Part shown: positions 15,143-39,913 of the stretch, piece by piece
How the letters are laid out: each line of letters opens with the position of its first letter
Numbering within the stretch: the first letter of the stretch is position 1
NCBI GenBank assembly: GCA_900498245.1
Contig: LS998015.1
Location: forward strand, 1,390,405 to 1,430,317
Direction of reading: 5' to 3'
DNA: 39,913 bases
Source: Candidatus Zixiibacteriota bacterium
Lineage (GTDB): Bacteria; Zixibacteria; MSB-5A5; GN15; PGXB01
Made by a program: the position numbers and the translations under genes
The notes under the pieces: model-generated
Told to the model about the DNA's origin: nothing
The model's input: the letters and a program-made list of their open reading frames with translations, nothing else
Database searches by the model: none

Positions 15143-17044
15143 ATGGGTAACAGGCAAATTTGGGGTAGAATAATTCTCGCGGGGATGATAATTCTGGCCG
15201 CCGGATCAAACCTTCTCGGTCAGGAAGCGATCAGTAACAGTGATTGCATGAATTGCCATGATGTGGCGGGCGGTGAAATCGGAAAGACGATTGACAGCTC
15301 ACTGGCAATGTCATCGCACAGCGGGATGAGTTGCACCGATTGCCACAGTTCCATCAAATCGCTTCCTCATGATGAAAAAGTCGCCCCGGTGGATTGCGGC
15401 ATTTGCCACACGACGGAATCGGAGCAGTATAAATGGCACGGACGCCTGCAGTATCCGGGCGGTTCCGATATCCCGGATTGCGCCGATTGCCACGGCAAGC
15501 ATGACATTCTGCCGGTGACCAATAAGGACTCGCGAATAAATCCGATAAACCTGCCGATGACTTGCGGGCGGTGCCACAGCGATCTTAATCTGGTAAAGAA
15601 GCACGATATTCTAATCGGGAACGCCGTTTCGGTTTACGAAAGCAGCGTACACGGCAAAGCGGCGCTGGGCGGAGTATATACGGCGGCGACCTGTAATGAC
15701 TGTCATTCGACGGCGGGAACGGCACATAAAATTCTTTCGCCGGGCGATCCGGAATCGTCGATTAACCATTTTAATATTCCCCGGACCTGCGGCAAGTGTC
15801 ATCGCAATGTCGAGAATGACTACTGGGAAGGAATTCATGGAAAACTGGTGGCGCGGGGAGAGACCGATGCGCCGGTTTGCACCAACTGCCACGGCGAGCA
15901 CGGTATCATTGCGCCGAGCGACCCCCGATCTCCGGTCAGTCCGGCCCGTATTGCGGAAGCGACCTGTTCTCCCTGTCATGAATCGGCGTATCTTAATGAA
16001 AAGTATGGCATCCCCGGCGGGCGCTTGAAATCGTTTGTCGACAGCTATCACGGATTAAAAAGCAAGGCGGGAGACGTGACTGTGGCCAACTGCTCATCGT
16101 GCCATGGCGCCCATAGAATACTACCCCATAGCGATCCGACCTCTTCAATCTTCCCGGCAAATTTGAGGAAGACCTGCGGCCAGTGCCACCCGGGGATATC
16201 GGCCGAGATGGCCAAAACCCCGATTCATAGTACGCCCGGCATATCGCAAACGCCGCTGGCGCGGACGATAGGGAAAATTTATATAGTTGTCATTATACTA
16301 ATTATCGGCCTGATGCTGGTTCACTGGCTCATTGACCTGCGCAAACAGATCAAAAACATAAGTCTGAAAGAACAGATCAAGCGGATGACCTATAATGAAG
16401 TCTGGCAACATACATTCCTTATGGTAACATTTATTACCCTTGTGATTACCGGCTTCGCCCTGAGATATTCGGAGTCGTGGTGGGTGCAAATAATGTTCGG
16501 TTGGGAAGGAGGGTTCCCGGTCAGGGGTATTGTTCACCGGACGGCGGCGGTGCTTTTCATCCTCACCAGTCTCTGGCACCTGTTCTATCTGACCACGCCT
16601 CGGGGCCGCCAATTCCTGAAGGATATCTTTCCCAATAAGAAGGATTTTGGCGAATTTATCCAAATGATTAAGTATAACCTCGGCTTCAAGGTTACCAAGC
16701 CGGCGTTTGGGCGATTCAGCTATATCGAAAAAGCAGAGTACTGGGCGCTGGTCTGGGGGACGGGCGTAATGATACTTAGCGGCCTGTTTCTCTGGTTCGA
16801 CAATCTGGCAGTGGCCTGGTTTCCCAAGGGATTTCTCGATGTGATGCTTGTCATGCATTTTTACGAGGCCTGGCTGGCATTTTTGGCGATACTCATCTGG
16901 CACATGTATTCAACCGTATTCAGCCCCAATGTCTATCCGATGAACCCGTCATGGTACACCGGGAAAATGCCGAAGGAATGGTATGAACATGAGCATCCGG
17001 ATGACCCGGCCCTGAAGGAAAAAGAAGAGACAGTCGAGGAATAG
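15143..17044 (+). CDS. Eleven-heme cytochrome c fused to b-type membrane domain (CbcL-like)
   Basis: Likely an inner-membrane quinol oxidoreductase passing electrons to periplasmic carriers. Residues 1-26 are a signal peptide. The periplasmic part (about 35-360) carries 11 CXXCH motifs (first CMNCH, last CGQCH), many followed by spaced HG or SVHG segments that supply distal His ligands. The C-terminal part has about five hydrophobic helices with His residues suited to b hemes (WQHTFLMVTFITLVITGFAL, GIVHRTAAVLFILTSLWHLFYL, MLVMHFYEAWLAFLAILIWHMY), resembling formate dehydrogenase gamma/HydC domains. The architecture matches Geobacter CbcL (9 c hemes plus HydC-like b). It forms an operon with 17073 (28-base gap). 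Confidence 0.9.
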   Translation: MGNRQIWGRIILAGMIILAAGSNLLGQEAISNSDCMNCHDVAGGEIGKTIDSSLAMSSHSGMSCTDCHSSIKSLPHDEKVAPVDCGICHTTESEQYKWHGRLQYPGGSDIPDCADCHGKHDILPVTNKDSRINPINLPMTCGRCHSDLNLVKKHDILIGNAVSVYESSVHGKAALGGVYTAATCNDCHSTAGTAHKILSPGDPESSINHFNIPRTCGKCHRNVENDYWEGIHGKLVARGETDAPVCTNCHGEHGIIAPSDPRSPVSPARIAEATCSPCHESAYLNEKYGIPGGRLKSFVDSYHGLKSKAGDVTVANCSSCHGAHRILPHSDPTSSIFPANLRKTCGQCHPGISAEMAKTPIHSTPGISQTPLARTIGKIYIVVIILIIGLMLVHWLIDLRKQIKNISLKEQIKRMTYNEVWQHTFLMVTFITLVITGFALRYSESWWVQIMFGWEGGFPVRGIVHRTAAVLFILTSLWHLFYLTTPRGRQFLKDIFPNKKDFGEFIQMIKYNLGFKVTKPAFGRFSYIEKAEYWALVWGTGVMILSGLFLWFDNLAVAWFPKGFLDVMLVMHFYEAWLAFLAILIWHMYSTVFSPNVYPMNPSWYTGKMPKEWYEHEHPDDPALKEKEETVEE

Positions 17045-17072
17045 AGACCCCAATTTGCGGCGGAAAGAAACA

Positions 17073-19862
17073 GTGACGGCCATTCGGTATAAATTCAATA
17101 TATTATTGTTTCTGGTGTGTCTGACATTTGCCGGCGGGATCGCCATGGGGCAGACAGCCGATGATTGCCTTTCCTGTCACGGCGATATTACTCTTACAAC
17201 TGCGCGCGATGGCAAGCAGATATCGCTCTTTATCGACGAAAAAATTTATAAGAAATCGGTGCATGGCGGTAATGACTGTGTGACCTGTCATGCCGATCTT
17301 TCCGGGACGGAATTTCCCCATAAGGCAAAGGTCGATCCGGTCGATTGCGGGTTGTGCCATGACCAGGTCGCGGCCGTCTATGACGGAAGCCTGCACGGAA
17401 AGGCGGTGACAGCCGGAATAAAGCTGGCCCCGCGCTGCTGGGATTGCCACGGCAGTCATGATATTGTTCCGGTGAAATCGCCGGAATCGCGAGTGACCAA
17501 ATTCAACATTCCGTTTGTTTGCGGCAGTTGCCATAAGGAAGGAACTCCGGTCAGCCGCGATTTTGCCATTCCTCAGGACAGCATTCTGACCCATTATTCC
17601 GAGAGTATTCATGGCGAGGGGCTGTACAAGCAGGGGTTGACAGTAACAGCGGTATGCTCGGATTGTCACACGGCTCATAATGTTCGCCCCCACAGCGATC
17701 CGCAGTCAAGCATTTATAGAGACAATGTTCCCAGAACCTGTGAGAAATGTCACGGGCGAATCGAAAAGGTCCACCTGAAAGTGGTTCGCGGTGAGTTGTG
17801 GGAAAAGGAGCCGAACAAAGTTCCGGTTTGTGTCGATTGTCATTCGCCGCATAAGATAAGACGAATCTTCTATGAGCAGGGAATGTCGAATCAGGATTGC
17901 CTGCTCTGCCATGGAAAGAAGGATTTGACCGCGATTCGGGACGGAAAAACCGTTTCGATGTATGTCGATTCGCTGGAGACCCAGCATTCGATTCATTCGA
18001 AAGTATCATGCGCTCAATGCCATACCGGCATTACCCCGTCGCATCAGCGCCCCTGCGCGACGATAACATCGAAGGTAGACTGCTCCATCTGCCATGAGCA
18101 GGTGGTGGAGACATATAAAACCAGCACCCATGGAATGCTTGCGGATAAGAATGACCCGGTGGCGCCGGTTTGCCGCGACTGCCACGGTACCCATAATATA
18201 TTGGGGCACGCCAACGAGGAATCGCCGACCTACCCCACTCACGTGCCGGATTTGTGCGGGAAATGCCATCGCGAAGGGAACAAGGCGGCGGTTCGATATA
18301 ATGGAACCCAGCACAACATCCTGGAGAATTATACCGAAAGTGCTCATGGCAAGGGACTTCTTCAAAGCGGGTTGGTGGTCACGGCGATGTGCACCGATTG
18401 TCATACTGCCCATCATGAATTGCCGCGAGATAATCCGGAATCGAGCATTAATCATAAGAATGTGCCGGCGACATGCGGACGGTGTCATAACGGCATTTAC
18501 GAGCAGTTCGAACAGAGCATTCATTCGCCTCTGGTTTCAAAGACCGACAAACCGCTTCCGGCCTGCATCGATTGCCATCAGTCGCACACCATAATTCGCA
18601 CCGATACGGAGGGTTTCAAACTTGGGATTATCAACCAGTGCGGAAAATGTCATGAAGATGTGACTAAAACCTATTTCGATACATTTCACGGCAAGGTCTC
18701 CAAACTGGGATATACGGCGGCCGCCAAGTGCTATGATTGCCATGGGGCACATAACATTCTGCCTCCGTATGAACCGAAATCGACTCTTTCGCGCACCAAT
18801 ATTGTCAAAACCTGCGGACAATGTCACCCAGGCTCGCACCGCCGCTTCGCCGGTTATCTAACCCATGCGACTCATCACGATCGCCACAAATATCCGATTC
18901 TTTTTTATACGTTCTGGTTCATGACGATTCTTCTGGTTGGGACCCTGACGATTGCCGGAACGCATACGCTGCTCTGGTTACCCCGTTCGTTCCAGATGAT
19001 GAAGAAACACAAGCAATTACGGATTGCGGCCCTGGGGAATCTGGAGTATGTCCGTTTCCGGACCCTGCCGAGAAGACTTCATATTCTGGTTATCATCAGT
19101 TTCCTGGGACTGGCATTAACCGGCATGACCCTCAAATTTTCCTATCTCGGCTGGGCGCAGTGGCTATCGGGGGTTCTGGGCGGATTCGAATCGGCCGCGT
19201 ATATTCACCGGGTCTGCGCGGTGATAACATTTTTCTATTTTGGGGCGCATATCTTCGATCTGATCCGAACCAAAATAAAGGAGAAGAAGACCTGGCGGCA
19301 GATACTATTCGGGGCGAATTCGATGCTTCCCAACAGAACCGATTTGAAAGAAGTGATCGGGACATTTAAGTGGTTTTTCGGTCTCGGGCCGCGGCCCAAC
19401 TACGGGCGATGGACCTACTGGGAAAAGTTCGACTACTTCGCCGTTTTCTGGGGTGTGGCAATTATCGGGACGACCGGACTGATGCTCTGGTTTCCGGAGA
19501 TTTTCACCCGCTTCCTGCCGGGCTGGATAATAAATGTGGCGACTATCGTGCATTCCGACGAAGCGCTTTTGGCAGTGGCATTTATATTCACAGTGCATTT
19601 CTTCAATACTCATTTCCGGCCCGACAAATTCCCGATGGATACGGTAATATTTACGGGCCGGGTACCGCTGGAGGAGTTGAAACAGGATCGCCCCCGCGAG
19701 TATGAGGAAATGATCAAAAGCCGCGAGATTAAGAAACATCTGGCTGAGCCGTTGCCGCCGGTCGTTATCAGGGGCCTGAAGATTTTCGGCGGGATAGCAC
19801 TATTTATTGGGATCTCTCTTATTTTTCTCATCATATATGCTGAAATATTCGGCTATCGCTGA
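17073..19862 (+). CDS. Nineteen-heme cytochrome c fused to b-type membrane domain (CbcL-like)
   Basis: Very large paralogue of the preceding protein: about 929 aa with 19 CXXCH motifs. After a signal peptide, two tandem blocks of eight hemes share visible sequence (DCLSCHGDITLTTARDGK in block 1, DCLLCHGKKDLTAIRDGK in block 2). Three further hemes and a b-type membrane domain follow (HRRFAGYLTHATHHD, then about five helices including YIHRVCAVITFFYFGAHIFDL and IVHSDEALLAVAFIFTVHFFNTHF). I prefer GTG 17073, with GGAAAG upstream, over the in-frame TTG 17055. A role as quinol dehydrogenase feeding periplasmic or outer-membrane cytochromes is inferred from architecture; the substrate is unknown. 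Confidence 0.88.
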   Translation: MTAIRYKFNILLFLVCLTFAGGIAMGQTADDCLSCHGDITLTTARDGKQISLFIDEKIYKKSVHGGNDCVTCHADLSGTEFPHKAKVDPVDCGLCHDQVAAVYDGSLHGKAVTAGIKLAPRCWDCHGSHDIVPVKSPESRVTKFNIPFVCGSCHKEGTPVSRDFAIPQDSILTHYSESIHGEGLYKQGLTVTAVCSDCHTAHNVRPHSDPQSSIYRDNVPRTCEKCHGRIEKVHLKVVRGELWEKEPNKVPVCVDCHSPHKIRRIFYEQGMSNQDCLLCHGKKDLTAIRDGKTVSMYVDSLETQHSIHSKVSCAQCHTGITPSHQRPCATITSKVDCSICHEQVVETYKTSTHGMLADKNDPVAPVCRDCHGTHNILGHANEESPTYPTHVPDLCGKCHREGNKAAVRYNGTQHNILENYTESAHGKGLLQSGLVVTAMCTDCHTAHHELPRDNPESSINHKNVPATCGRCHNGIYEQFEQSIHSPLVSKTDKPLPACIDCHQSHTIIRTDTEGFKLGIINQCGKCHEDVTKTYFDTFHGKVSKLGYTAAAKCYDCHGAHNILPPYEPKSTLSRTNIVKTCGQCHPGSHRRFAGYLTHATHHDRHKYPILFYTFWFMTILLVGTLTIAGTHTLLWLPRSFQMMKKHKQLRIAALGNLEYVRFRTLPRRLHILVIISFLGLALTGMTLKFSYLGWAQWLSGVLGGFESAAYIHRVCAVITFFYFGAHIFDLIRTKIKEKKTWRQILFGANSMLPNRTDLKEVIGTFKWFFGLGPRPNYGRWTYWEKFDYFAVFWGVAIIGTTGLMLWFPEIFTRFLPGWIINVATIVHSDEALLAVAFIFTVHFFNTHFRPDKFPMDTVIFTGRVPLEELKQDRPREYEEMIKSREIKKHLAEPLPPVVIRGLKIFGGIALFIGISLIFLIIYAEIFGYR

Positions 19863-26541: not shown

Positions 26542-27981
26542 ATGCCAAAACTGGTATTTCCAAAAGTGTCACAATTAATGGCAATAATAGTCATTTGCGC
26601 CATAATAATTCCGCATTTGGATGCCCAGACGCCAGGGGACAAATGTATCGCCTGCCATGAAAAGGTTTCCCCCGGAATCGTCGGCCAGTGGCATCTCTCT
26701 AAACACAGTCAGGCCGGAGTTTCGTGCATAGACTGCCATGAAGCGGAAGCCTCCGACCCCGACGGCTTTATGCATAATGGCCAGCGAATTGCCATAATTG
26801 TTTCGCCAAAGGATTGCGCCCAGTGCCATGAAGAGGAATATTTTCAGCAAAAAGGGTCGCATCACGCCAAGGCTGCCGATATTTTGGGTTCTCTGGATAA
26901 TCTTCTCGGAGAGGTTATTGGAGGGGAACCGGCCGTCAATGTCGGCTGCAAGCAGTGCCACGGCGGTGTCGTTCGGATCGATTCCACCGGTCATCCAACT
27001 TCGGACACATGGCCGAATACCGGGATGGGCCGAATCAATCCCGACGGATCCCGCGGATCGTGTTCGGCGTGTCATGCCCGGCATGAGTTCTCGGTCAAGC
27101 AGGCCCGACAACCGGAAGCCTGCGGGAAATGCCATCTGGGGCCGGATCATCCCCAGATCGAGGTTTGGAACGAATCAAAGCACGGGGTTCTATATCATGC
27201 GGACCGGGAAAATTTGAAATTGGAAAGCCAGCCGTGGCGAGCGGGTCAGGAATATTTTGTCGGACCGACCTGTTCGTCGTGTCATATGAGCGGATCGGGT
27301 CACCAGGCCACGACCCATGATGTCGGTGAAAGAATCTCGTGGACATTGCGGCCGCCAATATCGGTCAAACTAAACATGGTCGTATTCGAGGATGACGGCA
27401 AGGAAGATATAACAGGAGACAACCCGGTGCTTCCGGCGGTCGGGTCGATGTATAAGGCTTCCGCCGGTCAAATGAAAAAGGTCAAGGCGGTCCTGGACTG
27501 GAAAGATCGGCGATCGCGGATGCAGGATGTGTGCGGTCAGTGTCACGAGAAATCATTCGTGAAAGGGGCGTACGCACAATTCGACGATATGGTTAACTTA
27601 TATGACGAGAAATTCGCCAAACCGGCCAAGGCGATTATCGATGAACTGAAGGCGGCCGGGAAAATATCGCAAGCCGATTTTGACGACCCGATCGAATGGA
27701 CCTGGTATGAGATGTGGCACCATCAGGGGAGAAGGGCGCATCACGGGGCGGCGATGCAGGGACCGGATTATGCCTGGTGGCACGGTCTCTATGAAGTGGC
27801 AAAAGTCTTCTATATGGAGTTCTTGCCTCAGGTAAAAGAGGTGGCAGGCGAGGAAATGGCGTCGAAATTATTCGACAAATATATCTACACACAACCGGGG
27901 CACCTCTGGTATCGCGACGGTTTGGGAAAAGATGCTCTGGGAAAAATTCAGAAATTTTATAAGGAACGATATGGGGAATAA
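26542..27981 (+). CDS. Octaheme HAO-like multiheme cytochrome c
   Basis: The 479-aa periplasmic protein has a signal peptide (about 1-28) and eight CXXCH motifs: CIACH, CIDCH, CAQCH, CKQCH, CSACH, CGKCH, CSSCH and CGQCH. The heme-free C-terminal part (EWTWYEMWHHQGRRAHHGAAMQGPDYAWWHGLYEVAK and TQPGHLWYR) is typical of the hydroxylamine oxidoreductase-like family. Members oxidise hydroxylamine or hydrazine, or reduce nitrite when the crosslinking Tyr is absent. Tyr residues occur here (for example PDYAWW), but I cannot tell whether the crosslinking one is conserved. AGGGAG precedes the ATG. It is first in an operon with Rieske and cytochrome b genes. Confidence 0.9.
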   Translation: MPKLVFPKVSQLMAIIVICAIIIPHLDAQTPGDKCIACHEKVSPGIVGQWHLSKHSQAGVSCIDCHEAEASDPDGFMHNGQRIAIIVSPKDCAQCHEEEYFQQKGSHHAKAADILGSLDNLLGEVIGGEPAVNVGCKQCHGGVVRIDSTGHPTSDTWPNTGMGRINPDGSRGSCSACHARHEFSVKQARQPEACGKCHLGPDHPQIEVWNESKHGVLYHADRENLKLESQPWRAGQEYFVGPTCSSCHMSGSGHQATTHDVGERISWTLRPPISVKLNMVVFEDDGKEDITGDNPVLPAVGSMYKASAGQMKKVKAVLDWKDRRSRMQDVCGQCHEKSFVKGAYAQFDDMVNLYDEKFAKPAKAIIDELKAAGKISQADFDDPIEWTWYEMWHHQGRRAHHGAAMQGPDYAWWHGLYEVAKVFYMEFLPQVKEVAGEEMASKLFDKYIYTQPGHLWYRDGLGKDALGKIQKFYKERYGE

Positions 27982-28065: not shown

Positions 28066-28524
28066 TTGGATAGTTCCAATCAGGATCGGCGCGGTTTTCT
28101 GAACTGGCTTATCGGGGGAGGAGCGGTTGCATTTCTCGGTTCCGTTCTGTACCCGGTAGTAAAGTACATCGTTCCGCCGGCATCGGGGGAGGCCAATGTC
28201 TCCCAGGTAAAACTTCCGTTTAAATTGAAGGAATTGCAGGAAGACGATAAGCGGTTCAGAATTTTTAAATTTGGACGTACCCTGGGAATTATAGTCTGGG
28301 GCTCGGACAATAAACTTCATGCGCTATCCGCAATTTGTACACACCTTGATTGTACAGTCCAGTACCGGAAGGACCTCGGCCTGATCTGGTGTGCCTGTCA
28401 TAACGGCAAATATGATTTGGAAGGTAGAAATATATCAGGTCCGCCGCCGCGGCCATTAAAGCAGTTTGATGTCCATGTCAACCAGACCACCGGGGATATT
28501 GTCGTTGCCGAGGGACAGGCGTAA
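28066..28524 (+). CDS. Rieske [2Fe-2S] protein
   Basis: The 152-aa membrane-anchored Rieske protein has cluster ligands CTHLDC and CACHNGKYD, a GPPPRPL turn, and an N-terminal twin-arginine-like segment (DRRGFLNWLIGG) that also anchors it. The start is TTG 28066, supported by GGAGG four bases upstream; a nearby ATG is out of frame. It would pass electrons from quinol oxidised by the adjacent cytochrome b. Its stop overlaps the cytochrome b start (TAATG). Confidence 0.95.
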   Translation: MDSSNQDRRGFLNWLIGGGAVAFLGSVLYPVVKYIVPPASGEANVSQVKLPFKLKELQEDDKRFRIFKFGRTLGIIVWGSDNKLHALSAICTHLDCTVQYRKDLGLIWCACHNGKYDLEGRNISGPPPRPLKQFDVHVNQTTGDIVVAEGQA

Positions 28525-29645
28525 TGGAAAGGGCGACTTCACCCAAGAAATTCGGCCGAAGGATTTATACCTGGGTCGATGAGCGGCTGAAGATTGCCAC
28601 GCTGGTGGAATATATGTCGCACAAAGCGGTGCCCAAGCATCGCGGCTCGATCTGGTATTATTTCGGCGGGGCGACGCTATTCTTTTTCGTGGTGCAGGTG
28701 GTTACGGGAATACTTCTCTTGCTTTACTATCGGCCGGGTGCGGATTCGGCCTATGAATCGGTGAAATTTATAATTTCGGAAGTCTCCTTCGGGTGGCTGA
28801 TTCGGGCGATTCATTCCTGGTCGGCAAACCTGATGATTCTGGCTGCGTTCATCCATATGTTTTCGGTATTTTTCACGCATGCCTATCGGAATCCGCGGGA
28901 GATGACCTGGATTTCGGGAGTAATATTACTGGGGTTGGGCTTGATGTTCGGGTTTTCGGGGTATCTTTTGCCCTGGAACCAGCTCTCTTTCTTTGCGACC
29001 AGGGTCGGAACCGGCATGGCCGGTTCGTTGCCGATAGTGGGGAAATTTCTGATGACGGTGATGCGCGGCGGCGATGATGTCACGGGGGCGACAATTGGAC
29101 GATTTTTCGGTTTACACGTAGCGGTCCTGCCGGGCATTTTCGCGGTCCTGCTTTCTGTTCATCTCTTTTTCATACAGAGACAGGGGATGTCAGAGCCGCT
29201 GGAGTGGGAAACCGACAAGACGGCCGTTCACAAATACTATCCGTTTTTCCCCAATTTCCTGATGCGGGAACTTCTGATCTGGTTGATTATGCTCAATATC
29301 CTGGCGGTCCTGGCCGTAGTTTTTCCCGACGGTATCGGAGCGGTCCATTGGCCCCTGGGGCAGAAGGCCGACCCCTTTGCGCCGCCGCCGCCGGTAATTC
29401 GGCCGGAGTGGTATTTCATGTTTGCCTTTCAGGGACTGAAATTCATGCCGGCGCATCTTTTCTCAATCGAAGGGGAATTGATCGGGTTGGGGGTAATGTC
29501 TCTGGGCGGATTAATCTGGCTTCTGGTCCCGTTTCTTGCGCGAACCAAGGCCCCCGGAGAGAAACCGATTCTGATCAGCGCCTTCGGCTGGGTGGTTTTG
29601 ATATTTATCATTACGATGACTATTTTGGGATATTTGCTGAAATGA
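28524..29645 (+). CDS. Cytochrome b of a Rieske/b-type quinol oxidase
   Basis: The 373-aa polytopic protein has a full-length architecture with the b6-type N-terminal helices and the subunit IV-like C-terminal helices fused. Two pairs of His 14 residues apart (in IHSWSANLMILAAFIHMF and GLHVAVLPGIFAVLLSVHLFF) bind the two b hemes. The Qo-site PEWYF motif follows the IRPEWYFMFAFQGLKFMP segment. It would form a bc1/b6f-like complex with the Rieske protein; the usual c1 or f is replaced by multiheme c cytochromes encoded downstream. Its stop overlaps the next ATG (ATGA). Confidence 0.95.
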   Translation: MERATSPKKFGRRIYTWVDERLKIATLVEYMSHKAVPKHRGSIWYYFGGATLFFFVVQVVTGILLLLYYRPGADSAYESVKFIISEVSFGWLIRAIHSWSANLMILAAFIHMFSVFFTHAYRNPREMTWISGVILLGLGLMFGFSGYLLPWNQLSFFATRVGTGMAGSLPIVGKFLMTVMRGGDDVTGATIGRFFGLHVAVLPGIFAVLLSVHLFFIQRQGMSEPLEWETDKTAVHKYYPFFPNFLMRELLIWLIMLNILAVLAVVFPDGIGAVHWPLGQKADPFAPPPPVIRPEWYFMFAFQGLKFMPAHLFSIEGELIGLGVMSLGGLIWLLVPFLARTKAPGEKPILISAFGWVVLIFIITMTILGYLLK

Positions 29646-30904
29646 ACACAAGAGTACGAAATACGAGTCAATTATGGGTTGGAGTGGCCCTAATCGCGGC
29701 GGTGCTGCTGGTGCCGTCAATCGGCCGGGGAGACGGCTGTTATGATTGCCATTCGACATGGGAGGAAGGGAATCAGGCGCCGTCGAAATTGATTCATCTG
29801 GATGTTCATTACAAGGCCGGACTGGGATGCTCCGATTGCCACGGCGGCGATCCGAATGCCGATGATATGGATGTCGTGAGAAAGAGCAAAGGATTCAAAG
29901 GGGTGCCGAAACCGGCCGAGATTCCGCAATTCTGCGCCTCTTGCCACAGTGACCCGGTTTACATGATGAAGCATAATCCTTCATTGCCGACCGATCAATT
30001 GGAAAAATATAAAACCTCGGTTCATGGTAAACGGCTTTTGGAAAAAGGGGACACCAAGGTGGCCAATTGCGTTTCCTGCCATTCGGTGCATAATATAGAA
30101 ACGCCCCTGACGCCGACATCGACGGTCAATATTCAAAATGTTCCCAAGACCTGCGCCAAGTGCCATGCCGACTCGACCTATATGAAAGGGTACGGCATTC
30201 CCACAAATCAGTACAACGACTATGTCAAATCGGTTCATGGAGTGGCCTTGCTGGTCAATAAGGACAATGGCGCTCCGGCCTGCAACAGCTGTCATGGGAA
30301 TCATGGGGCTACCCCGCCCGGGGTTACGACACTGGCGGCCGTCTGCGGAACCTGTCATGCCCTGGTGGCGGATAATTTCGACAAATCCCCTCACAAGAAA
30401 GCTTTCGATGAAGCGGGGTTTCCCGAGTGCGAAACCTGTCACTCCAATCATTATGTCCAGAAACCCCAGTTGTATTGGGTCGGGATCACGGATTCATCCC
30501 TTTGTATAAGGTGCCACGCCGCCAATGACGGAACCCGGGGATTTGCAGTCGCCGATTCGGTTCATCTGGCCCTGAGCCGCCTGACTGATGCTTATGACAG
30601 GGCGGCCAAAGAAATCGATAGGGCGGATCAGAAGGGAATGATGGTAACCGATGACCGGTTTGCGCTGAATGATGTCAAGCAAAGCATAATTCAGGGAACC
30701 AACGAAGTTCATTTATTTGACGCCTCGGTGGTGGAAAAGACATCAGCCGAAGCAGTTAAGGCGGCGGACAAGGTCTATGAATCGGGGCAGAAAAAGATCG
30801 CCAATTACTATTTCCGCCGGAAGGGATTGGGAATAGCCACTCTCCTGATAACAATTCTGGTTATCGCCTTATTTTTCAAGATGAGATCTCTTGATAAGAA
30901 CTAA
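29642..30904 (+). CDS. Nine-heme membrane-anchored cytochrome c
   Basis: The 420-aa protein starts at ATG 29642, overlapping the cytochrome b stop by four bases. A signal peptide precedes nine CXXCH motifs (CYDCH, CSDCH, CASCH, CVSCH, CAKCH, CNSCH, CGTCH, CETCH, CIRCH) with interspersed SVHG and PHKK segments that offer distal His ligands. A helical linker and one C-terminal membrane helix (LGIATLLITILVIALFF) follow. It probably replaces cytochrome c1 as electron acceptor of the Rieske/b unit. An open frame extending upstream to 29204 overlaps cytochrome b and is not the gene. Confidence 0.92.
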   Translation: MNTRVRNTSQLWVGVALIAAVLLVPSIGRGDGCYDCHSTWEEGNQAPSKLIHLDVHYKAGLGCSDCHGGDPNADDMDVVRKSKGFKGVPKPAEIPQFCASCHSDPVYMMKHNPSLPTDQLEKYKTSVHGKRLLEKGDTKVANCVSCHSVHNIETPLTPTSTVNIQNVPKTCAKCHADSTYMKGYGIPTNQYNDYVKSVHGVALLVNKDNGAPACNSCHGNHGATPPGVTTLAAVCGTCHALVADNFDKSPHKKAFDEAGFPECETCHSNHYVQKPQLYWVGITDSSLCIRCHAANDGTRGFAVADSVHLALSRLTDAYDRAAKEIDRADQKGMMVTDDRFALNDVKQSIIQGTNEVHLFDASVVEKTSAEAVKAADKVYESGQKKIANYYFRRKGLGIATLLITILVIALFFKMRSLDKN

Positions 30905-30980: not shown

Positions 30981-32495
30981 ATGAGAGAATTGAAATTTCC
31001 ACGCCTGGTTTATAACTGGATCAGTACGGCCGGCGTCATAATCTCAGTCATTTCGGGATCTCTGGTTTTGCTACTGATGGGGATCTCGCTTTTCACACGG
31101 GATTCCAATCCCTACTTCGGCGTCTTCATGTACATGATTTTGCCGCCGTTTGTCCTGGCCGGACTGGCTTTGATCCCGATCGGAATGTATCGAACGTGGA
31201 AGAAATGGCGCCGGGAGGGGATCGAATCATACCCCAAATGGCCCTATATAGACCTGAATAAGCGCAGCCATCGCAACGCCACCGCCATCTTTTTTTTCGG
31301 GACGATTGTCTTCCTGGCGTTCGGGGCGGTCGGCAGCTATGAAGCATTTCATTACAGCGAGTCGGTCAATTTCTGCGGCAAGACCTGTCATACGGTGATG
31401 AAGCCGGAGTTTACGGCCTATCAGAATTCCCCCCATGCCCGGGTGGCATGTGTGGCATGTCATGTGGGGCCGGGGGCGGGATGGTACGCCAAATCGAAAC
31501 TTGCGGGGGCCTACCAGGTTTACGCGGTGGTGGCCGATAAATACCCGCGGCCGATTCCGACGCCGATTAAGAATCTGCGTCCGGCGCAGGAGACCTGCGA
31601 ACAGTGCCACTGGCCGGACAAGTTTTTCGGCGGCCAGCAGAAAGTATTCGATAATTATATGTATGACAGCACTAATTATTCCTGGCCGATAAACCTCTTG
31701 ATTAAAACAGGCGGAGGGGATCCCCGGACCGGTCAGACGGCGGGTATTCACTGGCACATGAATATTGCGGTTAAAGTCGAATATATTGCCCGAGATGAGC
31801 AGCGCCAGGATATTCCCTGGGTCAAAATAACGGAAAGGAAGACAGGGCGGTCGGTGGTTTATCAAAGCAAAGAAAATCCATTGTCGCAAGAAGAGATAAG
31901 TAAGGCGGTGCCTCGGGTCATGGATTGCATGGATTGCCATAATCGGCCCAGCCATATTTATAACTCGCCCGATTATGCGATAAATATGGCCATTGCTACC
32001 GGCAAGATTAAGAGCAGTTTGCCTTACATTAAGCGAATAGCAGTAGCGGCGATGAGCGCCCAGTATGACAACGACAGCACGGCCCGTGAAGGAATCGCCA
32101 ATTATATAATTGACTTTTATCATGACAGCCTGTCGGGTGTTTATGACAGCCGCCAGGGGGATGTCGACGCGGCGGTGGCGGCGGTTCAATATACGTACAG
32201 TCAGAATATTTTTCCGGAGATGAAAGTCCGTTGGACGGAATATGAAAATAATCTGGGGCACTTCATTTCCAAAGGATGTATGCGGTGCCACGCCGGGGAT
32301 CATGTCAGTTCCGACGGGGAAGTAATCACCCGCGAGTGTACTGCCTGTCACACGATCTTGTCGCAGGGGAGCGGCGGCAGGGCGCAAATGGCCTCTGATC
32401 AAAATGGTTTGGAATTTGTCCACCCCGAGGAATCGATCGGCGAAGCTTGGAAAGAGATGGGATGCTATGATTGCCATACAGGGGTTCAGCCCTAG
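30981..32495 (+). CDS. NapC/NirT-like heptaheme membrane cytochrome
   Basis: The 504-aa protein has three N-terminal membrane helices, unlike the single one of NapC. They are followed by a NapC-like start of the periplasmic part: an atypical heme site C-GKT-CH at 132-137, CVACH, CEQCH, CMDCH, CMRCH, CTACH and CYDCH (six standard plus one CX3CH). The AYQNSPHARVACVACHVGPG segment is typical of this family. It would take electrons from quinol and feed the HAO-like or nine-heme protein. AGGAT lies 12 bases before the ATG. The 76-base gap makes it the last gene of the operon. Confidence 0.88.
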   Translation: MRELKFPRLVYNWISTAGVIISVISGSLVLLLMGISLFTRDSNPYFGVFMYMILPPFVLAGLALIPIGMYRTWKKWRREGIESYPKWPYIDLNKRSHRNATAIFFFGTIVFLAFGAVGSYEAFHYSESVNFCGKTCHTVMKPEFTAYQNSPHARVACVACHVGPGAGWYAKSKLAGAYQVYAVVADKYPRPIPTPIKNLRPAQETCEQCHWPDKFFGGQQKVFDNYMYDSTNYSWPINLLIKTGGGDPRTGQTAGIHWHMNIAVKVEYIARDEQRQDIPWVKITERKTGRSVVYQSKENPLSQEEISKAVPRVMDCMDCHNRPSHIYNSPDYAINMAIATGKIKSSLPYIKRIAVAAMSAQYDNDSTAREGIANYIIDFYHDSLSGVYDSRQGDVDAAVAAVQYTYSQNIFPEMKVRWTEYENNLGHFISKGCMRCHAGDHVSSDGEVITRECTACHTILSQGSGGRAQMASDQNGLEFVHPEESIGEAWKEMGCYDCHTGVQP

Positions 32496-32568: not shown

Positions 32569-33090
32569 TTACTTCTTCTCGGCCGGAGCTTCTTCCTTGG
32601 CGGCCATAGCATGTACTTTGAGTTTCATCTTGGCGAAATCAAAGGGCTCTTTGGAGGCAAACTGCGCCGGAACATTTTCGTGGCACTTTTTGCAGACCTT
32701 CTCGTCGGGCATAATCAAGCCAGCCTCGAGAGCCAACTTCTTATCTTTCATGACCGACATTTTCATATAGTCGGAACCCGGACCGTGGCAAGCTTCGCAC
32801 TGAACGCCGGTCAGCATTTCGCCGGCGGCATTCTTGCCGGTGGAATGGCAAGCGACGCACTTTTCGTCTTTCTGCTCTTCCGGTTTCAAACTATCCCAGG
32901 CCTTGGCATGTTTGGATTCCAGCCAGGTGGGGTAAACGTTGTCCTTCTTGTGGCACATCATGCACTTGCTGGCGCCAACGTAGGTATGTTTGGCGGGGGC
33001 AGGTTCGGCGGCCTTTTCCTGGGCGAAGGCGGGGGCCATGAAGATTGCCAGAACGGCAACGATTGTGAAAGTAATCACAAACTTCTTCAT
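32569..33090 (-). CDS. Tetraheme cytochrome c (c554-like)
   Basis: The 173-aa periplasmic electron carrier has a signal peptide (ending PAFA-QEK) and four CXXCH motifs (CMMCH, CVACH, CEACH, CKKCH). HTYVGASKCMMCHKKD, LESKHAKAWDSL and TGVQCEACHGPGSDY match the cytochrome c554 family, whose Nitrosomonas member accepts electrons from HAO. A Lys/Ala/Glu-rich tail ends it. It is monocistronic, between two terminators. Proximity to the HAO-like gene supports a shuttle role between that enzyme or the quinol oxidases and the outer-membrane conduit. Confidence 0.92.
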   Translation of the reverse strand: MKKFVITFTIVAVLAIFMAPAFAQEKAAEPAPAKHTYVGASKCMMCHKKDNVYPTWLESKHAKAWDSLKPEEQKDEKCVACHSTGKNAAGEMLTGVQCEACHGPGSDYMKMSVMKDKKLALEAGLIMPDEKVCKKCHENVPAQFASKEPFDFAKMKLKVHAMAAKEEAPAEKK

Positions 33091-33306: not shown

Positions 33307-34362
33307 TTAGTGAGATGCGATCGGGCCATAGCGGCGTTTGCCGACCAGAACGCCATTCATATAATCAATTGAGTTGCCTAAGACGCTTCTGACATAGGCC
33401 GGATTATGGACGCCCTCGGAACGGTCGCCTTCAATCATTAGGTAGTCAAACAGGCAGCCGGCGACATTTTTATCGGCAATGGTCAGGGTATCGCCGGAAG
33501 GGACATTCGGCAAATAAGAGCCCTGGGTGAAGGTCAGGACGCCGAAATCAATCAATTGGGTGCGCAGAGTGTCCATCATGGCAACGACATCGGTCTGGAT
33601 GCTGTCATAATCGAAGCTCTCGGCTGTAGTGTGGCAAGTCGTACAGACACTTGAAAGATCGCTGCCGGACTCTTCATCAACCATATTCCAACTATGACCG
33701 CCCACCATATAGCCGTCATGAACCTGGGGATTCGCCATATGGCAGCCGATGCAGGCATTGGTCACCTGGGTGGCATGAGGTGATTTATTATAAGTGTAAC
33801 CCTCAATTTCATAGCAATTAGTGCCATTGAGAATATCGGCCTGCATGCTGTGATGCGGTCCCCAGCGATTTGAGGTTATTTGATAGTCATCGCTGGCGAT
33901 GGCATTCGCACCCATCCGGGCCTGGTGGCAATTGGCGCAAAGATTACCTTCGCCGTGGTCAAAGGAAACGCCATTGGCCAAAGTTACGGCGGCCGTAGTT
34001 CTCAAGTTCAGGTTGCCGGAGGTATGAGGCGCATGGCAAGTGAAGCAATGGATGGCGGCGGGATGATCATAGGGCGCATCGTCGGATCCGGTGGCGAGAT
34101 AATCAAGGAAGCCGTTGTCGCTATGGCAGCGTCCGCACCCCGCACGGTTGGCATAATCAACTGTCGTGCCCGAGGCGTGAACGGAATTGGCGTATTCGCC
34201 TTCCGCCTGAATGAGACGGCTGTCGGAGTCACCATGGCAAGTGAAACAACTGGTCAGAACGCTCGATTCCTTGCTTTCATAAACAACCTTGCGCTCGCAG
34301 CCGGTAGCCAGCAGAAGTACTGCCAAGAATGCGATTGGCCCCAAAAGACGTAAGAATTTCAT
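33307..34362 (-). CDS. Hexaheme cytochrome c lipoprotein (candidate extracellular terminal)
   Basis: The 351-aa protein has a lipoprotein signal (lipobox LLATGC, Cys22). Six CXXCH motifs follow: CFTCH, CGRCH, CFTCH, CANCH, CIGCH and CTTCH. The last 100 residues lack hemes and end in EGVHNPAYVRSVLGNSIDYMNG, a helix found at the C-terminus of several large multiheme proteins. AAAGGAG precedes the ATG. It is encoded last in the conduit operon, after the barrel (12-base gap). The lipid anchor and position suggest the outer-surface electron donor, as with OmcB or MtrC, but it has fewer hemes than they do. Confidence 0.88.
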   Translation of the reverse strand: MKFLRLLGPIAFLAVLLLATGCERKVVYESKESSVLTSCFTCHGDSDSRLIQAEGEYANSVHASGTTVDYANRAGCGRCHSDNGFLDYLATGSDDAPYDHPAAIHCFTCHAPHTSGNLNLRTTAAVTLANGVSFDHGEGNLCANCHQARMGANAIASDDYQITSNRWGPHHSMQADILNGTNCYEIEGYTYNKSPHATQVTNACIGCHMANPQVHDGYMVGGHSWNMVDEESGSDLSSVCTTCHTTAESFDYDSIQTDVVAMMDTLRTQLIDFGVLTFTQGSYLPNVPSGDTLTIADKNVAGCLFDYLMIEGDRSEGVHNPAYVRSVLGNSIDYMNGVLVGKRRYGPIASH

Positions 34363-34374
34363 AATACTACTCCT

Positions 34375-35934
34375 TTAGAAGGACAGTTCCTTAATTAAAT
34401 TGATTTCTACGATATTGGCCGTGTAGTAATTATCCAGGAGGAGATAGTCGTCGAAATTATGCAGATTATACACGACTTCCAAATGGTGATTTTTTGCAAA
34501 GCGGTAGCCAAGGATTACACGGATATTATAGCTTTCAACATCAAGATCCCGTTGACTGCGGTAATATGTGGCCTCACAAGCGGCGGTCATATCATGATAC
34601 TCATGAAGAGACAGGGCGCCGTAGAGAATATGATCGCGGAACTCGAAAGTTTGAGTCACATTTTCATATTTGCCCGTGGAATAAGAATAACCGCCGGATA
34701 GATCGGCCCATTTTTTCATGATTAAAGTGCCATCGGCGCCCAGACGGTTGAAGTCGACTTTACTCCCGATATCGTCATTTTTGCGCTGTTTGCCTTCGTA
34801 TTTGAGTTCCAGGGAGCCGGTTTTGTTTTCGCGGTAATTAAGAACCAGGCGATAACGGGTGTGGTCCTCATTTCCCAACATGCGCACGCCATCCTTGACA
34901 TCTTCGGCGCGAGAACCGAATTCGCCGCGGAACTCCCATTTAGCACCCGGTTTGTACCAGCCGGCGGCGTAGAAAGAATTGGCGCGGACCTCATTGGCGA
35001 AATCATCGTTGACATCGTTCTGGTACCCCAGAGTGATGCCGCCTTCACCCGGCTGAGTAAGCATGAGATACACCGCGTGTGCCAGATTGTCGGTGGCGAT
35101 GAGATCGCTGTCGGAACTGGTGCGATCAAAGATGAAATGATAATTGAGGGCGAGATTTTTCGTCATATTTAGCAGAGCCCCACCCCAGACGGTATTGGTA
35201 CTGTACTTGAAATCGGTCGTTTTATACTTGGTTTCGAAATGGCGGAATCCGCCGGATAATGTTACCCATTCATATTTGGGAAACGGGAGAAGAGCATTGA
35301 GGCGGATATTGTAGCGGCTCTGGTCGCGGGCCGGATCGAGTTTATCCTTATAGTCGGCGGTGCGATACTCGGCCTGAAACATCCGACCATGCTCGTTAAA
35401 GCGGAAACCGGCATTATAGCAATTCTGGCGATAATCCATCTTTGTTTCGGCGCCGGGTAGATCGGGATAAAAGAGGGCCGTGGTCGAGCCGTGAAGATTG
35501 ATAAAACTCCCGCCGCCGAATAATTTCAGGTATTTGGAGGGGTAGTACCACAGCGAAGTTCCGGTTTGACTGCGGCGGGTGAAACTCCCGCCTTCGGCGC
35601 CGTAAATGCGGCGATACTGATTATTGCTGAGAGAAAGACCAAAGAGCCCCGGTTTCCCGAAGCCGAGAATCATGTTGCGGTTATTAAGAGTGATATTTTT
35701 CAGGTCGGCATTCAACCGCATGCCGTTTTGAAAATTATAATAAAATTTCTCGAATGAGAGGCCGAGTCCTTCGTAGTCGTTGAAAGTCGGCTGATTGATG
35801 GCCTGATTGCCCTTTTCGTCGATTATAGTATATCCGATCCGGACATTCCCATTGCCGGCATTTTCGGCCGCCACCAAACTCCCCAGAAGGAGGGTGAAGG
35901 ACAGGGTGACGAGGATTAATTTAGTTATTTTCAT
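34375..35934 (-). CDS. MtrB/PioB-like outer-membrane beta-barrel
   Basis: The 519-aa protein has a signal peptide (about 1-23) and long alternating-strand sequence with Gly/Tyr-rich turns. It ends in Phe (IVEINLIKELSF), the C-terminal mark of barrel proteins. No cofactor motif is seen. GAGGAGG lies six bases before ATG 35934; upstream in-frame ATGs overlap the cytochrome gene. Between a decaheme-type cytochrome and a heme lipoprotein, it fits the porin of a porin-cytochrome conduit. Assignment to the MtrB/PioB family is by context and size. Confidence 0.75.
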   Translation of the reverse strand: MKITKLILVTLSFTLLLGSLVAAENAGNGNVRIGYTIIDEKGNQAINQPTFNDYEGLGLSFEKFYYNFQNGMRLNADLKNITLNNRNMILGFGKPGLFGLSLSNNQYRRIYGAEGGSFTRRSQTGTSLWYYPSKYLKLFGGGSFINLHGSTTALFYPDLPGAETKMDYRQNCYNAGFRFNEHGRMFQAEYRTADYKDKLDPARDQSRYNIRLNALLPFPKYEWVTLSGGFRHFETKYKTTDFKYSTNTVWGGALLNMTKNLALNYHFIFDRTSSDSDLIATDNLAHAVYLMLTQPGEGGITLGYQNDVNDDFANEVRANSFYAAGWYKPGAKWEFRGEFGSRAEDVKDGVRMLGNEDHTRYRLVLNYRENKTGSLELKYEGKQRKNDDIGSKVDFNRLGADGTLIMKKWADLSGGYSYSTGKYENVTQTFEFRDHILYGALSLHEYHDMTAACEATYYRSQRDLDVESYNIRVILGYRFAKNHHLEVVYNLHNFDDYLLLDNYYTANIVEINLIKELSF

Positions 35935-35944
35935 ATTCACCTCC

Positions 35945-36913
35945 TCAATTGTCCAGTTCGGTTGCGTGACATCCGGCCTGGAAGCAATTGGGAAAGAGTT
36001 TGACGCCAAGATCCGGATCGAGGAAGTCTTTGTTGGTATTAGAGCCGTGAATATCGCTATGACAGAAAACACAGGCAAAGCGGCTCCCCAGCCCGCTGTG
36101 CATAGTGCGGTGCAGAGGGGGAATGCCGTGGCACTGCAAACAGGTTCCATTATCCGGCTGAGCCAGGAGCCGATCATTGGGCGAACCATGCGGATTATGG
36201 CACTCGGTGCATCCGCCGCCGTTGACGGCATGTTTATATACCACGGGATGTTCGTAGATAAACGGCCCGGCCTTGTCGCCGTGGCAATTCTGGCAGGGCC
36301 AGTCCATGCCGACAGCGAGGGAAGGATCTTTCAAATCGGACATCTTGTGACAATCGGTACAGCGGATATTGCCGGAATTCAAGGGGTGAGCCGAACGCTG
36401 CTTGAACTCCCTGGCGACGTTAGCGTGGCAGGTGGCGCAGAAATTTTCATCACCGTCTTTGACCAATCCCGGATTATGGTTGCCATGAATGGAGTGGCAG
36501 TCAAAACAGCCCAGACCGGCCCTGAGATGCGGATCGGCGGACGCCATCCCGGCCTGATGGACGGCAACATGACAGCGGCGGCACAATTCCGCCTGCTTAT
36601 CGGGCGTAAGCGCGCCGATATTGGTTATGGTTTCGGCGGAAGGATTGTCAAGATGCTTCTCCCATCCGTCATGGCACCCGATACAGCCAACGCCAATTGA
36701 TGATTTGGGCGAGATATCGGACATCATTTGATGGGGGGTGCCTTTTAAGGAGGCGCCTTTGTCATCATGACAAGTAAGGCAATCGGCCGATTTTTTCACC
36801 AGATCCTGGTTGCTGTAGTATTGAGCGGAAACGATGGGAACCAGGAGCAGAGAGAAAATCATGACCATTATCGCCTTAAACGGCAGTTTTGGAAATCTTC
36901 TCTTTCTTATCAT
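35945..36913 (-). CDS. Decaheme-type periplasmic cytochrome c (MtrA/DmsE-like)
   Basis: The 322-aa protein has a signal peptide (core IMVMIFSLLLVPIVSA) and ten CXXCH motifs (first CLTCH, last CVFCH). An eleventh, atypical CFQAGCH site (residues 310-316, CX4CH) sits at the C-terminus. Spacing (GCIGCHDGWEKH, GCFDCHSIHGNHNPG, CTECHNPHGSPN) resembles the DmsE/MtrA decaheme family that plugs into an outer-membrane barrel. It is first in the conduit operon; the barrel gene starts 10 bases after the stop. It would carry electrons across the outer membrane. Confidence 0.88.
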   Translation of the reverse strand: MIRKRRFPKLPFKAIMVMIFSLLLVPIVSAQYYSNQDLVKKSADCLTCHDDKGASLKGTPHQMMSDISPKSSIGVGCIGCHDGWEKHLDNPSAETITNIGALTPDKQAELCRRCHVAVHQAGMASADPHLRAGLGCFDCHSIHGNHNPGLVKDGDENFCATCHANVAREFKQRSAHPLNSGNIRCTDCHKMSDLKDPSLAVGMDWPCQNCHGDKAGPFIYEHPVVYKHAVNGGGCTECHNPHGSPNDRLLAQPDNGTCLQCHGIPPLHRTMHSGLGSRFACVFCHSDIHGSNTNKDFLDPDLGVKLFPNCFQAGCHATELDN

Positions 36914-38478: not shown

Positions 38479-38535
38479 AAGTAGATAAAGTCATCGTCGA
38501 TTCGTCAATAAAGTAAATCAATATTGGGAGGCAAG

Positions 38536-39246
38536 ATGTTTTCAAAAGCGCTTTTATTTATTGGTGTCTTTCCGCTTGTAGCGATATTGCCCCTTTCTGT
38601 ACCGGCAGGCGGCCAGGCTCTTTGCGGCGATCCCAGCGGCGACGGTCAAATCAATATTGTCGATATCAGCTTCATGGTCAATTTTATTTACAAAAATGGC
38701 CCCGAACCCACTTCCATTTCGGTCTGTGATGTGAACCATTCAAATGGAATTAATATATTAGATGTTTCCTGTCTGATCAATTTCCTCTATAAGGGCGGCC
38801 CGTCATTAAATTGCGGGAACGTAGCCTCGGGGGACTTAATCGGCCACAGCCCTTGCAAGAGCCTTTTGGCAGCGAAGATATTCGACTCCATTCCCTCCGA
38901 CCAAGATTGCGTGCAGTATCAATATGACGGTTTTGGAACCCTGACGCTGAAACATATCAATGCGGGATTAAATTGCTGCCCGATAATCGCGGCTGACGTT
39001 TACGTCTCTGGAAGTACCATAACTATTGTGGAGATAGACTCAACGGACAATGGCGGCTGCAGTTGTCTTTGCACTTTTGATCTTGAATATGGGATTGATG
39101 ATTTGTTGCCGGGGATATATACTCTGAGGTTTGTCGAGCCGTATAAAACCACGTCGGATCCGCCGTTGGAAGTGATCATCGATATAGGGACCAATCCTTC
39201 GGGCGAATATTGTGTGTCGCGCTGTTGTTATCCGTGGGGGCAATAA
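38536..39246 (+). CDS. Secreted dockerin-like protein 1
   Basis: The 236-aa exported protein has a signal peptide, then two dockerin type I-like calcium loops: DPSGDGQINIVD and DVNHSNGINILD, each followed by a helix ending in F-YK-GGP. A Cys-rich module follows (LNCCPII, NGGCSCLCTFDLEY). GGGAGG lies four bases before ATG 38536. Dockerin-type repeats often attach secreted proteins to cohesin-like or surface partners. No enzyme domain is seen. A tandem paralogue follows after 122 bases. Confidence 0.88.
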   Translation: MFSKALLFIGVFPLVAILPLSVPAGGQALCGDPSGDGQINIVDISFMVNFIYKNGPEPTSISVCDVNHSNGINILDVSCLINFLYKGGPSLNCGNVASGDLIGHSPCKSLLAAKIFDSIPSDQDCVQYQYDGFGTLTLKHINAGLNCCPIIAADVYVSGSTITIVEIDSTDNGGCSCLCTFDLEYGIDDLLPGIYTLRFVEPYKTTSDPPLEVIIDIGTNPSGEYCVSRCCYPWGQ

Positions 39247-39368
39247 CTGAATTGGGCCGAGTAATTGCCAGGGTAAATTTAAAAAATTGAAGAGTGGGAA
39301 TGGATACCAAATTTATTAGATACAATAAATTCGAATCTGATAATTGCACAGAAATTATGGGAGGCACA

Positions 39369-39913
39369 ATGTTTATCAGGATCATTTTCTTAATCGGCAT
39401 CATCTCGCTAATAGCGACAATCCCGCAAGGCGCCATGTCTGGTGGCCTGGCTCTTTGTGGGGATCCCAGCGACGACGGCAATATTAATATTTTGGACGTG
39501 AGCTTTATGATAGATTTTCTTTATAAAAATGGGCCGGCGCCGGCTCAGCCATTGGTATGCGACGTGGATAATTCATATAAAGTCAATATACTGGATGTCG
39601 CCTATCTAATTAATTTTCTGTATAAAAGCGGGCCGGAGCCGTCTTGCGGCACGGAGCCATCGGGTGAAATAATTGGACATGGTTCCTGCAAACAGTATTT
39701 GCAGGCCAAGGCGCTCGATTCTATCTTTCGTAATCAAGATTGTATTCAATACCAATATGACGGTTTGGGAACACTGACATTGAAACATGTCAATGCCGGA
39801 TTGAATTGTTGCCCGGTGTTCGTGGGCGATATTCAAGTTTCTGGAAATACTATTACGATTACGGAAATAGACTCCACGATAGACGGCGGGTGCGAGTGTT
39901 TGTGTCTTTTCGA
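39369..39913 (+). CDS. Secreted dockerin-like protein 2, cut by window edge
   Basis: Paralogue of the preceding gene with the same order of parts: signal peptide, loops DPSDDGNINILD and DVDNSYKVNILD, then the GLGTLTLKHVNAGLNCCPV module. It is still open after about 181 codons at the right edge, which cuts the C-terminal Cys-rich part. GGGAGG lies four bases before ATG 39369. The shared promoter-proximal features suggest a recent tandem duplication. Confidence 0.88.
   Translation, partial: MFIRIIFLIGIISLIATIPQGAMSGGLALCGDPSDDGNINILDVSFMIDFLYKNGPAPAQPLVCDVDNSYKVNILDVAYLINFLYKSGPEPSCGTEPSGEIIGHGSCKQYLQAKALDSIFRNQDCIQYQYDGLGTLTLKHVNAGLNCCPVFVGDIQVSGNTITITEIDSTIDGGCECLCLF

Follow-up and report, generated by a model that had tools for sequence, protein, structure and literature searches.

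A putative electron conduit across the outer membrane of Zixibacteria that ends in an OcwA/NrfA-type lipoprotein

How might a member of the Zixibacteria move electrons across its outer membrane? The question is raised by three adjacent genes in a stretch of 39,913 nucleotides (the window), which covers positions 1390405-1430317 of a 3.5-Mb genome that is in a single contig. Relatives in named records are Candidatus Zixiibacteriota, and an 82% relative of one of the three proteins, a beta-barrel, comes from an uncultured Zixibacteria metagenome-assembled genome. The genes form a single tight run on the minus strand (33307-36913), in the order decaheme cytochrome, barrel, and six-heme lipoprotein. 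The genes, and the two parts of their products that we will return to, are:

35945-36913, minus strand: periplasmic cytochrome of the MtrA/DmsE type (322 amino acids, with a signal peptide, ten CX2CH motifs, and a terminal CX4CH)
35966-35986, minus strand: predicted eleventh heme site at the C-terminus of that cytochrome (CFQAGCH, or CX4CH, residues 310-316; conserved in the alignment)
34375-35934, minus strand: predicted outer-membrane beta-barrel sheath (519 amino acids, 26 predicted strands)
33307-34362, minus strand: outer-membrane lipoprotein with six hemes, from the NrfA/OcwA superfamily (351 amino acids, six CX2CH motifs, lipobox)
33361-33795, minus strand: C-terminal part of the lipoprotein, of the NrfA type (residues 190-334, PF02335; the last two hemes and heme-free helices with S-x-G-V-H-N)

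We think that this triad encodes an electron conduit across the outer membrane, with a probability of about 0.8, and we infer that the three proteins assemble into a complex. The best reading of the parts is an MtrAB-like wire that ends in an OcwA/NrfA-type surface cytochrome. The 26-strand barrel would sheathe the MtrA-like cytochrome, whose ten hemes would span the membrane, and an eleventh heme at the outward C-terminus of the cytochrome would pass electrons to the lipid-anchored six-heme lipoprotein. On the cell surface, the lipoprotein would be the terminal reductase for a presumed acceptor (or, in reverse, an oxidase), which is the position of MtrC and OmcA in Shewanella. The electrons would probably come from quinol, by way of a Rieske/cytochrome b/nine-heme module or an NrfH-like cytochrome, along with a tetraheme c554-like carrier. 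An earlier note on this DNA, made from the sequence alone, had also taken the gene order as a sign of extracellular electron transfer. Both the fold of the barrel, for which MtrB is the top match, and the presence of a cytochrome partner at all 41 of the loci that we read support that view.

By its sequence, the decaheme cytochrome is of the MtrA/DmsE kind. It matches TIGR03508 (the DmsE family) with an E value of 1e-49 and 169 bits, which is under the 192-bit cut-off, and it matches the MtrA chain of the Mtr complex (6r2q_A) at 1.3e-26 as a single sequence and at 1.9e-47 by profile. (This chain is mislabelled as "Cystathionine beta-synthase" in the sequence table, but PDB entry 6r2q is the Mtr complex.)

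The barrel has no match in Pfam, NCBIfam, or the PDB sequences, and its profile gives only noise against the PDB sequences. PF11854 (the MtrB/PioB family) does not match the barrel or any other protein in the host genome. The AlphaFold model of the barrel, which was built from a 41-row alignment, has 26 strands and a mean predicted local distance difference test (pLDDT) of 91.6. Its top match in Foldseek is MtrB (6r2q_B; E = 6.7e-17, template-modeling score [TMq] = 0.82). TonB-dependent receptors come next and are far behind (TM of about 0.5), so the barrel did not turn out to belong to a transporter family that lacks a cytochrome partner, which the earlier note had named as one finding that would undo its idea. 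The model also has a short helix (residues 48-50) in the loop that joins its first two strands, like MtrB, which is a 26-strand barrel with a small helix in the strand 1-2 loop (PMC7198977). On the strength of the model, we consider the barrel to be a 26-strand outer-membrane barrel of the MtrB fold. As for the gene itself, the open reading frame as listed (34375-36231) is over-extended, and we prefer a start at 35934, which has an AGGAGG site ahead of it and is likely the true start. At the other end of the run, about 15 bases past the stop codon of the lipoprotein, we read directly from the sequence a hairpin, rich in G+C and with runs of A and T (AAAAAAAGGCCCCGCAAAGGGGCCTTTTTTT), which a pattern scan had missed. 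The hairpin is likely to be the end of the transcript.

Do the three genes stay together in other genomes? We read 41 barrel loci with their flanks (the window and 40 relatives). The contig search for barrels used a closer set of 12 sequences, and its coverage is essentially within the phylum. Among close relatives, 58 of 98 have the barrel; across the phylum, it is in 71 of 132 genomes, and in 49 of the 78 that are of good quality. A cytochrome with 10-11 hemes lies directly upstream of the barrel at every one of the 41 loci (one is truncated by the end of the contig), and a multiheme lipoprotein lies directly downstream at 40 of them. The exception (L050), which is on a short contig, has a tetraheme gene on the opposite strand. 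Thus, the check that the earlier note had suggested, whether the three genes co-occur, came out in its favor, with the same gene order at 40 of 41 loci. The pairwise distances of the three proteins are correlated (r = 0.88, 0.63, and 0.50), which could arise from shared descent alone. We also note that DYGG01000036.1 (L086), which is titled Ignavibacterium sp., has the same barrel as G006, a genome within the window's own family; the name of the record is probably wrong.

While the cytochrome and the barrel are constant, the lipoprotein varies. The 40 downstream lipoproteins comprise 27 short NrfA-type proteins, 9 proteins of about 700 amino acids with 12-14 hemes (L079, L080, L082, L083, L047, L048, L058, L059, and L064), and 4 heme-rich proteins without an NrfA-type part (L051, L061, L062, and L081). 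The longer proteins have an extra multiheme front as well as the NrfA-type part, which sits towards the C-terminus (we placed it from coordinates in L083, and for several others from the search of the phylum). Across the family, the number of hemes ranges from 5 to 16. So the tip is modular and the wire constant. Relatives of the lipoprotein are found in 82 of 132 genomes from the phylum, including some where the barrel is absent.

What, then, is the lipoprotein? It has a lipobox (LLATGC-ER) and exactly six CX2CH motifs, which agrees with the count in the earlier note. That note described the C-terminal part as unfamiliar; instead, it is the C-terminal region of NrfA, as residues 190-334 match PF02335 (E = 3e-12, 46.7 bits, cut-off 24.1). 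The match spans positions 234-372 of the PF02335 model, which is the C-terminal third only. The lipoprotein shares with NrfA and its octaheme relatives this region, the last heme pair, and the helices (residues 252-273, 298-313, and 321-340 of the predicted structure). When we compared the profile of the lipoprotein family to solved structures, OcwA of Thermincola potens was first (6i5b; 5.4e-7), followed by NrfA and octaheme nitrite reductases. The profile also matches 6qvm along its length, which we take to be OmhA of Carboxydothermus. Similarly, a fold search with the predicted structure (pLDDT 81, predicted TM [pTM] 0.81) put OcwA at the top (E = 2.7e-4, probability 1.00, TMq = 0.49), ahead of octaheme reductases, NrfA, and MccA. 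Because the TM score is modest, kinship is the safe claim: the lipoprotein belongs to the NrfA/OcwA superfamily. We rejected a tip from the MtrC/OmcA family, as none of 60 relatives has a match to TIGR03507 over the cut-off; the best match in the host genome (3.4e-6, 26 bits) is at another place.

In NrfA, the catalytic heme is bound by CXXCK (CXXCH in some NrfA) and there is a catalytic tyrosine. Profile alignments to OcwA and NrfA pair hemes 2-6 of the lipoprotein with hemes 5-9 of OcwA. We chose this register because it is supported by the profile alignments not only to OcwA and NrfA but also to octaheme reductases, and we dropped another register that places heme 1 on the catalytic heme of NrfA (phmmer, E of about 0.02). 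Heme 2 of the lipoprotein, which aligns with the catalytic heme, is CGRCH (CXXCH, not CXXCK), and the sequence at and after heme 4, the third core heme, is CANCHQAR (consensus CANCHHSR), without the tyrosine. The lipoprotein also differs from NrfA by its additional N-terminal heme and its lipid anchor. Since the lipoprotein has not kept the hallmarks of a nitrite reductase active site, the name NrfA would be misleading. Heme 1, which is beside the lipid anchor, may be an extra entry point for electrons.

OcwA, a characterized terminal reductase of the cell surface, exchanges electrons with electrodes; its hemes 5-9 superpose on the NrfA core, it has an NrfA-like C-terminal three-helix bundle, and it has an open heme pocket with a His-His pair above a core heme (PMC6703420). 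Besides the profile and fold relation, the lipoprotein shares with OcwA the NrfA-like five-heme core and a helical C-terminus with S-x-G-V-H-N. Around HH380/381 of OcwA, the lipoprotein has WGPHHS, in a place where the alignment is gapped. Unlike OcwA, which has nine hemes, the lipoprotein has six, is predicted to be lipid-anchored in the outer membrane, and is paired with a barrel conduit. It lacks the front half of OcwA, which is tetraheme and c554-like, whereas its relatives of about 700 amino acids, with their extra front, resemble the two-part plan of OcwA. Separately, the host genome has a paralogue of the lipoprotein at 2410247 (L041:8095-9279), away from the triad and near PorV-like and electron-transfer flavoprotein-like genes. 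The paralogue has six heme sites, including two CX3CH and one CX4CH.

How would electrons pass from the wire to the lipoprotein? Along the cytochrome, the match to MtrA stops at heme 10, which makes the eleventh site an extra that Shewanella MtrA does not have. The earlier note had pointed to an additional CX4CH at the end of this cytochrome. It was right that the motif is there (CFQAGCH), but the site is not peculiar to one protein: both cysteines and the histidine are present in all 40 aligned cytochromes. The spacing is CX4CH in 25 of these, CX2CH in 3, and CX1CH in 12 (L049, L050, L052-L054, L056, L057, L063, and L075-L078), where the site reads C-[FYW]-C-H. The CX1CH rows occupy two places on the barrel tree, and the three spacing states require five changes. 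We rejected sequencing error as the source of CX1CH, since this spacing is shared by 12 genomes that fall at two separate points of the tree, with no exceptions inside either group. A constant C...CH with a shifting spacing is expected of a heme site under selection, and we consider the eleventh site to be a conserved heme site across the cytochrome family, with a predicted heme. A covalent heme at CX1CH would be the most surprising element, and we propose it from the sequence only. The sole trace of such a heme that we found in the literature that we searched is the motif list of a pipeline, which already includes CXCH. Because the C-terminus of MtrA points outward (PMC7198977), the eleventh heme would lie where electrons pass to the lipoprotein.

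Some of the evidence weighs against the conduit. A lipobox does not prove surface exposure, so the lipoprotein may instead point into the periplasm. The identity of the barrel to MtrB is about 10%, and with PF11854 unmatched, their kinship rests on the predicted fold. Could the barrel be an unrelated transporter or receptor, with neighbors that are there by coincidence? Its lack of any sequence family would allow this, but we find the idea hardly credible, as MtrB is the top fold match, the number of strands agrees, and there is a cytochrome next to the barrel at every locus that we read, across the whole phylum. The NrfA/OcwA superfamily also includes true small-molecule reductases. The cytochrome and the barrel might feed an extracellular enzyme, just as DmsEF feeds the dimethyl sulfoxide reductase of Shewanella, and the lipoprotein might reduce nitrite, hydroxylamine, or something similar at the surface. 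The DmsE model is the closest to the cytochrome, the lipoprotein belongs to the NrfA superfamily, with no other PF02335 match in the genome, and OcwA itself slowly reduces nitrite (PMC6703420). Nevertheless, a family that has anywhere from 5 to 16 hemes, and in which four lineages have replaced the NrfA-type part, is easier to reconcile with a contact surface than with a fixed active site. With CXXCH instead of CXXCK at heme 2 and no NrfA tyrosine after heme 4, a small-molecule enzyme seems quite unlikely to us.

If the triad is a conduit, then electrons might also flow inward: Fe(II) or another cell would donate to the lipoprotein and the conduit would feed the periplasm. Such a system would be the same conduit run in the opposite direction. 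Conduits of the MtrAB type are known to work both ways, and inward flow has been proposed for MtoAB, for PioAB, and for direct interspecies electron transfer. Also, Zixibacteria have been described as both iron reducers and iron oxidisers based on their genes (PMC8478452, PMC9769843). On the other hand, the quinol-side proteins in the window (Rieske/cytochrome b and NrfH-like) fit export, and we did not see a surface oxidase. We consider inward flow unlikely, and gene content cannot settle the direction.

The conduit that we propose would share with Shewanella MtrCAB/MtrAB (6r2q) an MtrA/DmsE decaheme cytochrome, a 26-strand barrel fold, a surface multiheme lipoprotein, and clustered genes. 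It differs in that the barrel has about 500 residues and no detectable sequence kinship to MtrB, in that the tip is a six-heme NrfA/OcwA-type lipoprotein rather than MtrC or OmcA, and in its gene order (A-B-lipoprotein). Going by their descriptions, OmbB-OmaB-OmcB of Geobacter and OetABI are also similar, since each is a gene cluster for a periplasmic cytochrome, a porin, and a lipoprotein cytochrome at the surface. For Zixibacteria, earlier work has listed MtrAB or porin-cytochrome genes (FeGenie, PMC7005843; PMC9769843) and iron-cycling genes (PMC8478452), while a broad survey of mtrCAB found it in three phyla and did not mention Zixibacteria (PMC8805035). Another study reported mtrAB in Zixibacteria but no extracellular cytochromes (PMC4411801); the lipoprotein is likely to be the missing extracellular part. 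In the literature that we searched, which excludes most subscription journals, we came across neither a description of the OcwA/NrfA-type tip nor one of the eleventh site with its variable spacing.

These results suggest that an MtrAB-like wire may carry a terminal cytochrome from another superfamily, which would be a link to OcwA of Gram-positive bacteria. More broadly, it is possible that a wire of this kind with an OcwA/NrfA-type tip is phylum-wide, that the surface reductases of Gram-positive and diderm bacteria have one ancestry, and that the motif for the eleventh heme shifts among CX4CH, CX2CH, and CX1CH, where CX1CH, with one residue between its cysteines, is a naturally occurring site of covalent heme attachment. 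We hold this combined claim tentatively and would not count on it. The variable eleventh site offers a direct test of a natural CX1CH covalent heme. There is a practical concern as well, as automatic annotation may label the lipoprotein a nitrite reductase. Finally, Zixibacteria are widespread in genomes from the subsurface and sediment and are credited with iron cycling, and the lipoprotein is a concrete candidate for the outer end of the path.

Where would the electrons come from? The window has several other redox genes, some of which might supply them:

32569-33090, minus strand: tetraheme c554-like periplasmic cytochrome, a candidate electron donor (PF13435, 4e-10)
30981-32495, plus strand: membrane-anchored NrfH/NapC-like six-heme cytochrome, a candidate inner-membrane donor (TIGR03153, 2.4e-12, below the cut-off; PF03264, 1.3e-10)
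28066-28524, plus strand: Rieske protein (PF00355, 1.3e-11)
28524-29645, plus strand: cytochrome b (PF00033, 3.9e-51)
29642-30904, plus strand: membrane-anchored nine-heme cytochrome (nine CXXCH)
15143-19862, plus strand: 11-heme protein fused to a membrane part that resembles cytochrome b561, then a 19-heme protein (935 amino acids)

The Rieske protein, cytochrome b, and nine-heme cytochrome (28066-30904) are a candidate bc-type quinol oxidation module, and the same trio is near the triad in L067 and L072. Homologues of the tetraheme cytochrome are near the triad at 8 of 41 loci, those of the NrfH-like cytochrome at 11 of 41, and those of the 11- and 19-heme genes at up to 6 of 41 (counting the window). 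Such recurrence is consistent with electrons passing from quinol across the periplasm and into the wire.

The window also encodes, at 26542-27981 on the plus strand, an octaheme cytochrome of the hydroxylamine oxidoreductase/hydrazine dehydrogenase kind (PF13447, 7.9e-24; NF052343, 2e-24, which is far below the cut-off). Elsewhere in the host genome, at about 967100-970400 (L042:7155-10378), are two adjacent heme-dense proteins, with about 16 CXXCH in 415 amino acids and about 26 in 669 amino acids, that distantly resemble the decaheme cytochrome. At the end of the window, on the plus strand (38524-39911), are two neighboring paralogues with dockerin-type repeats (GDPSGDG...NILD), the second of which extends past the window.

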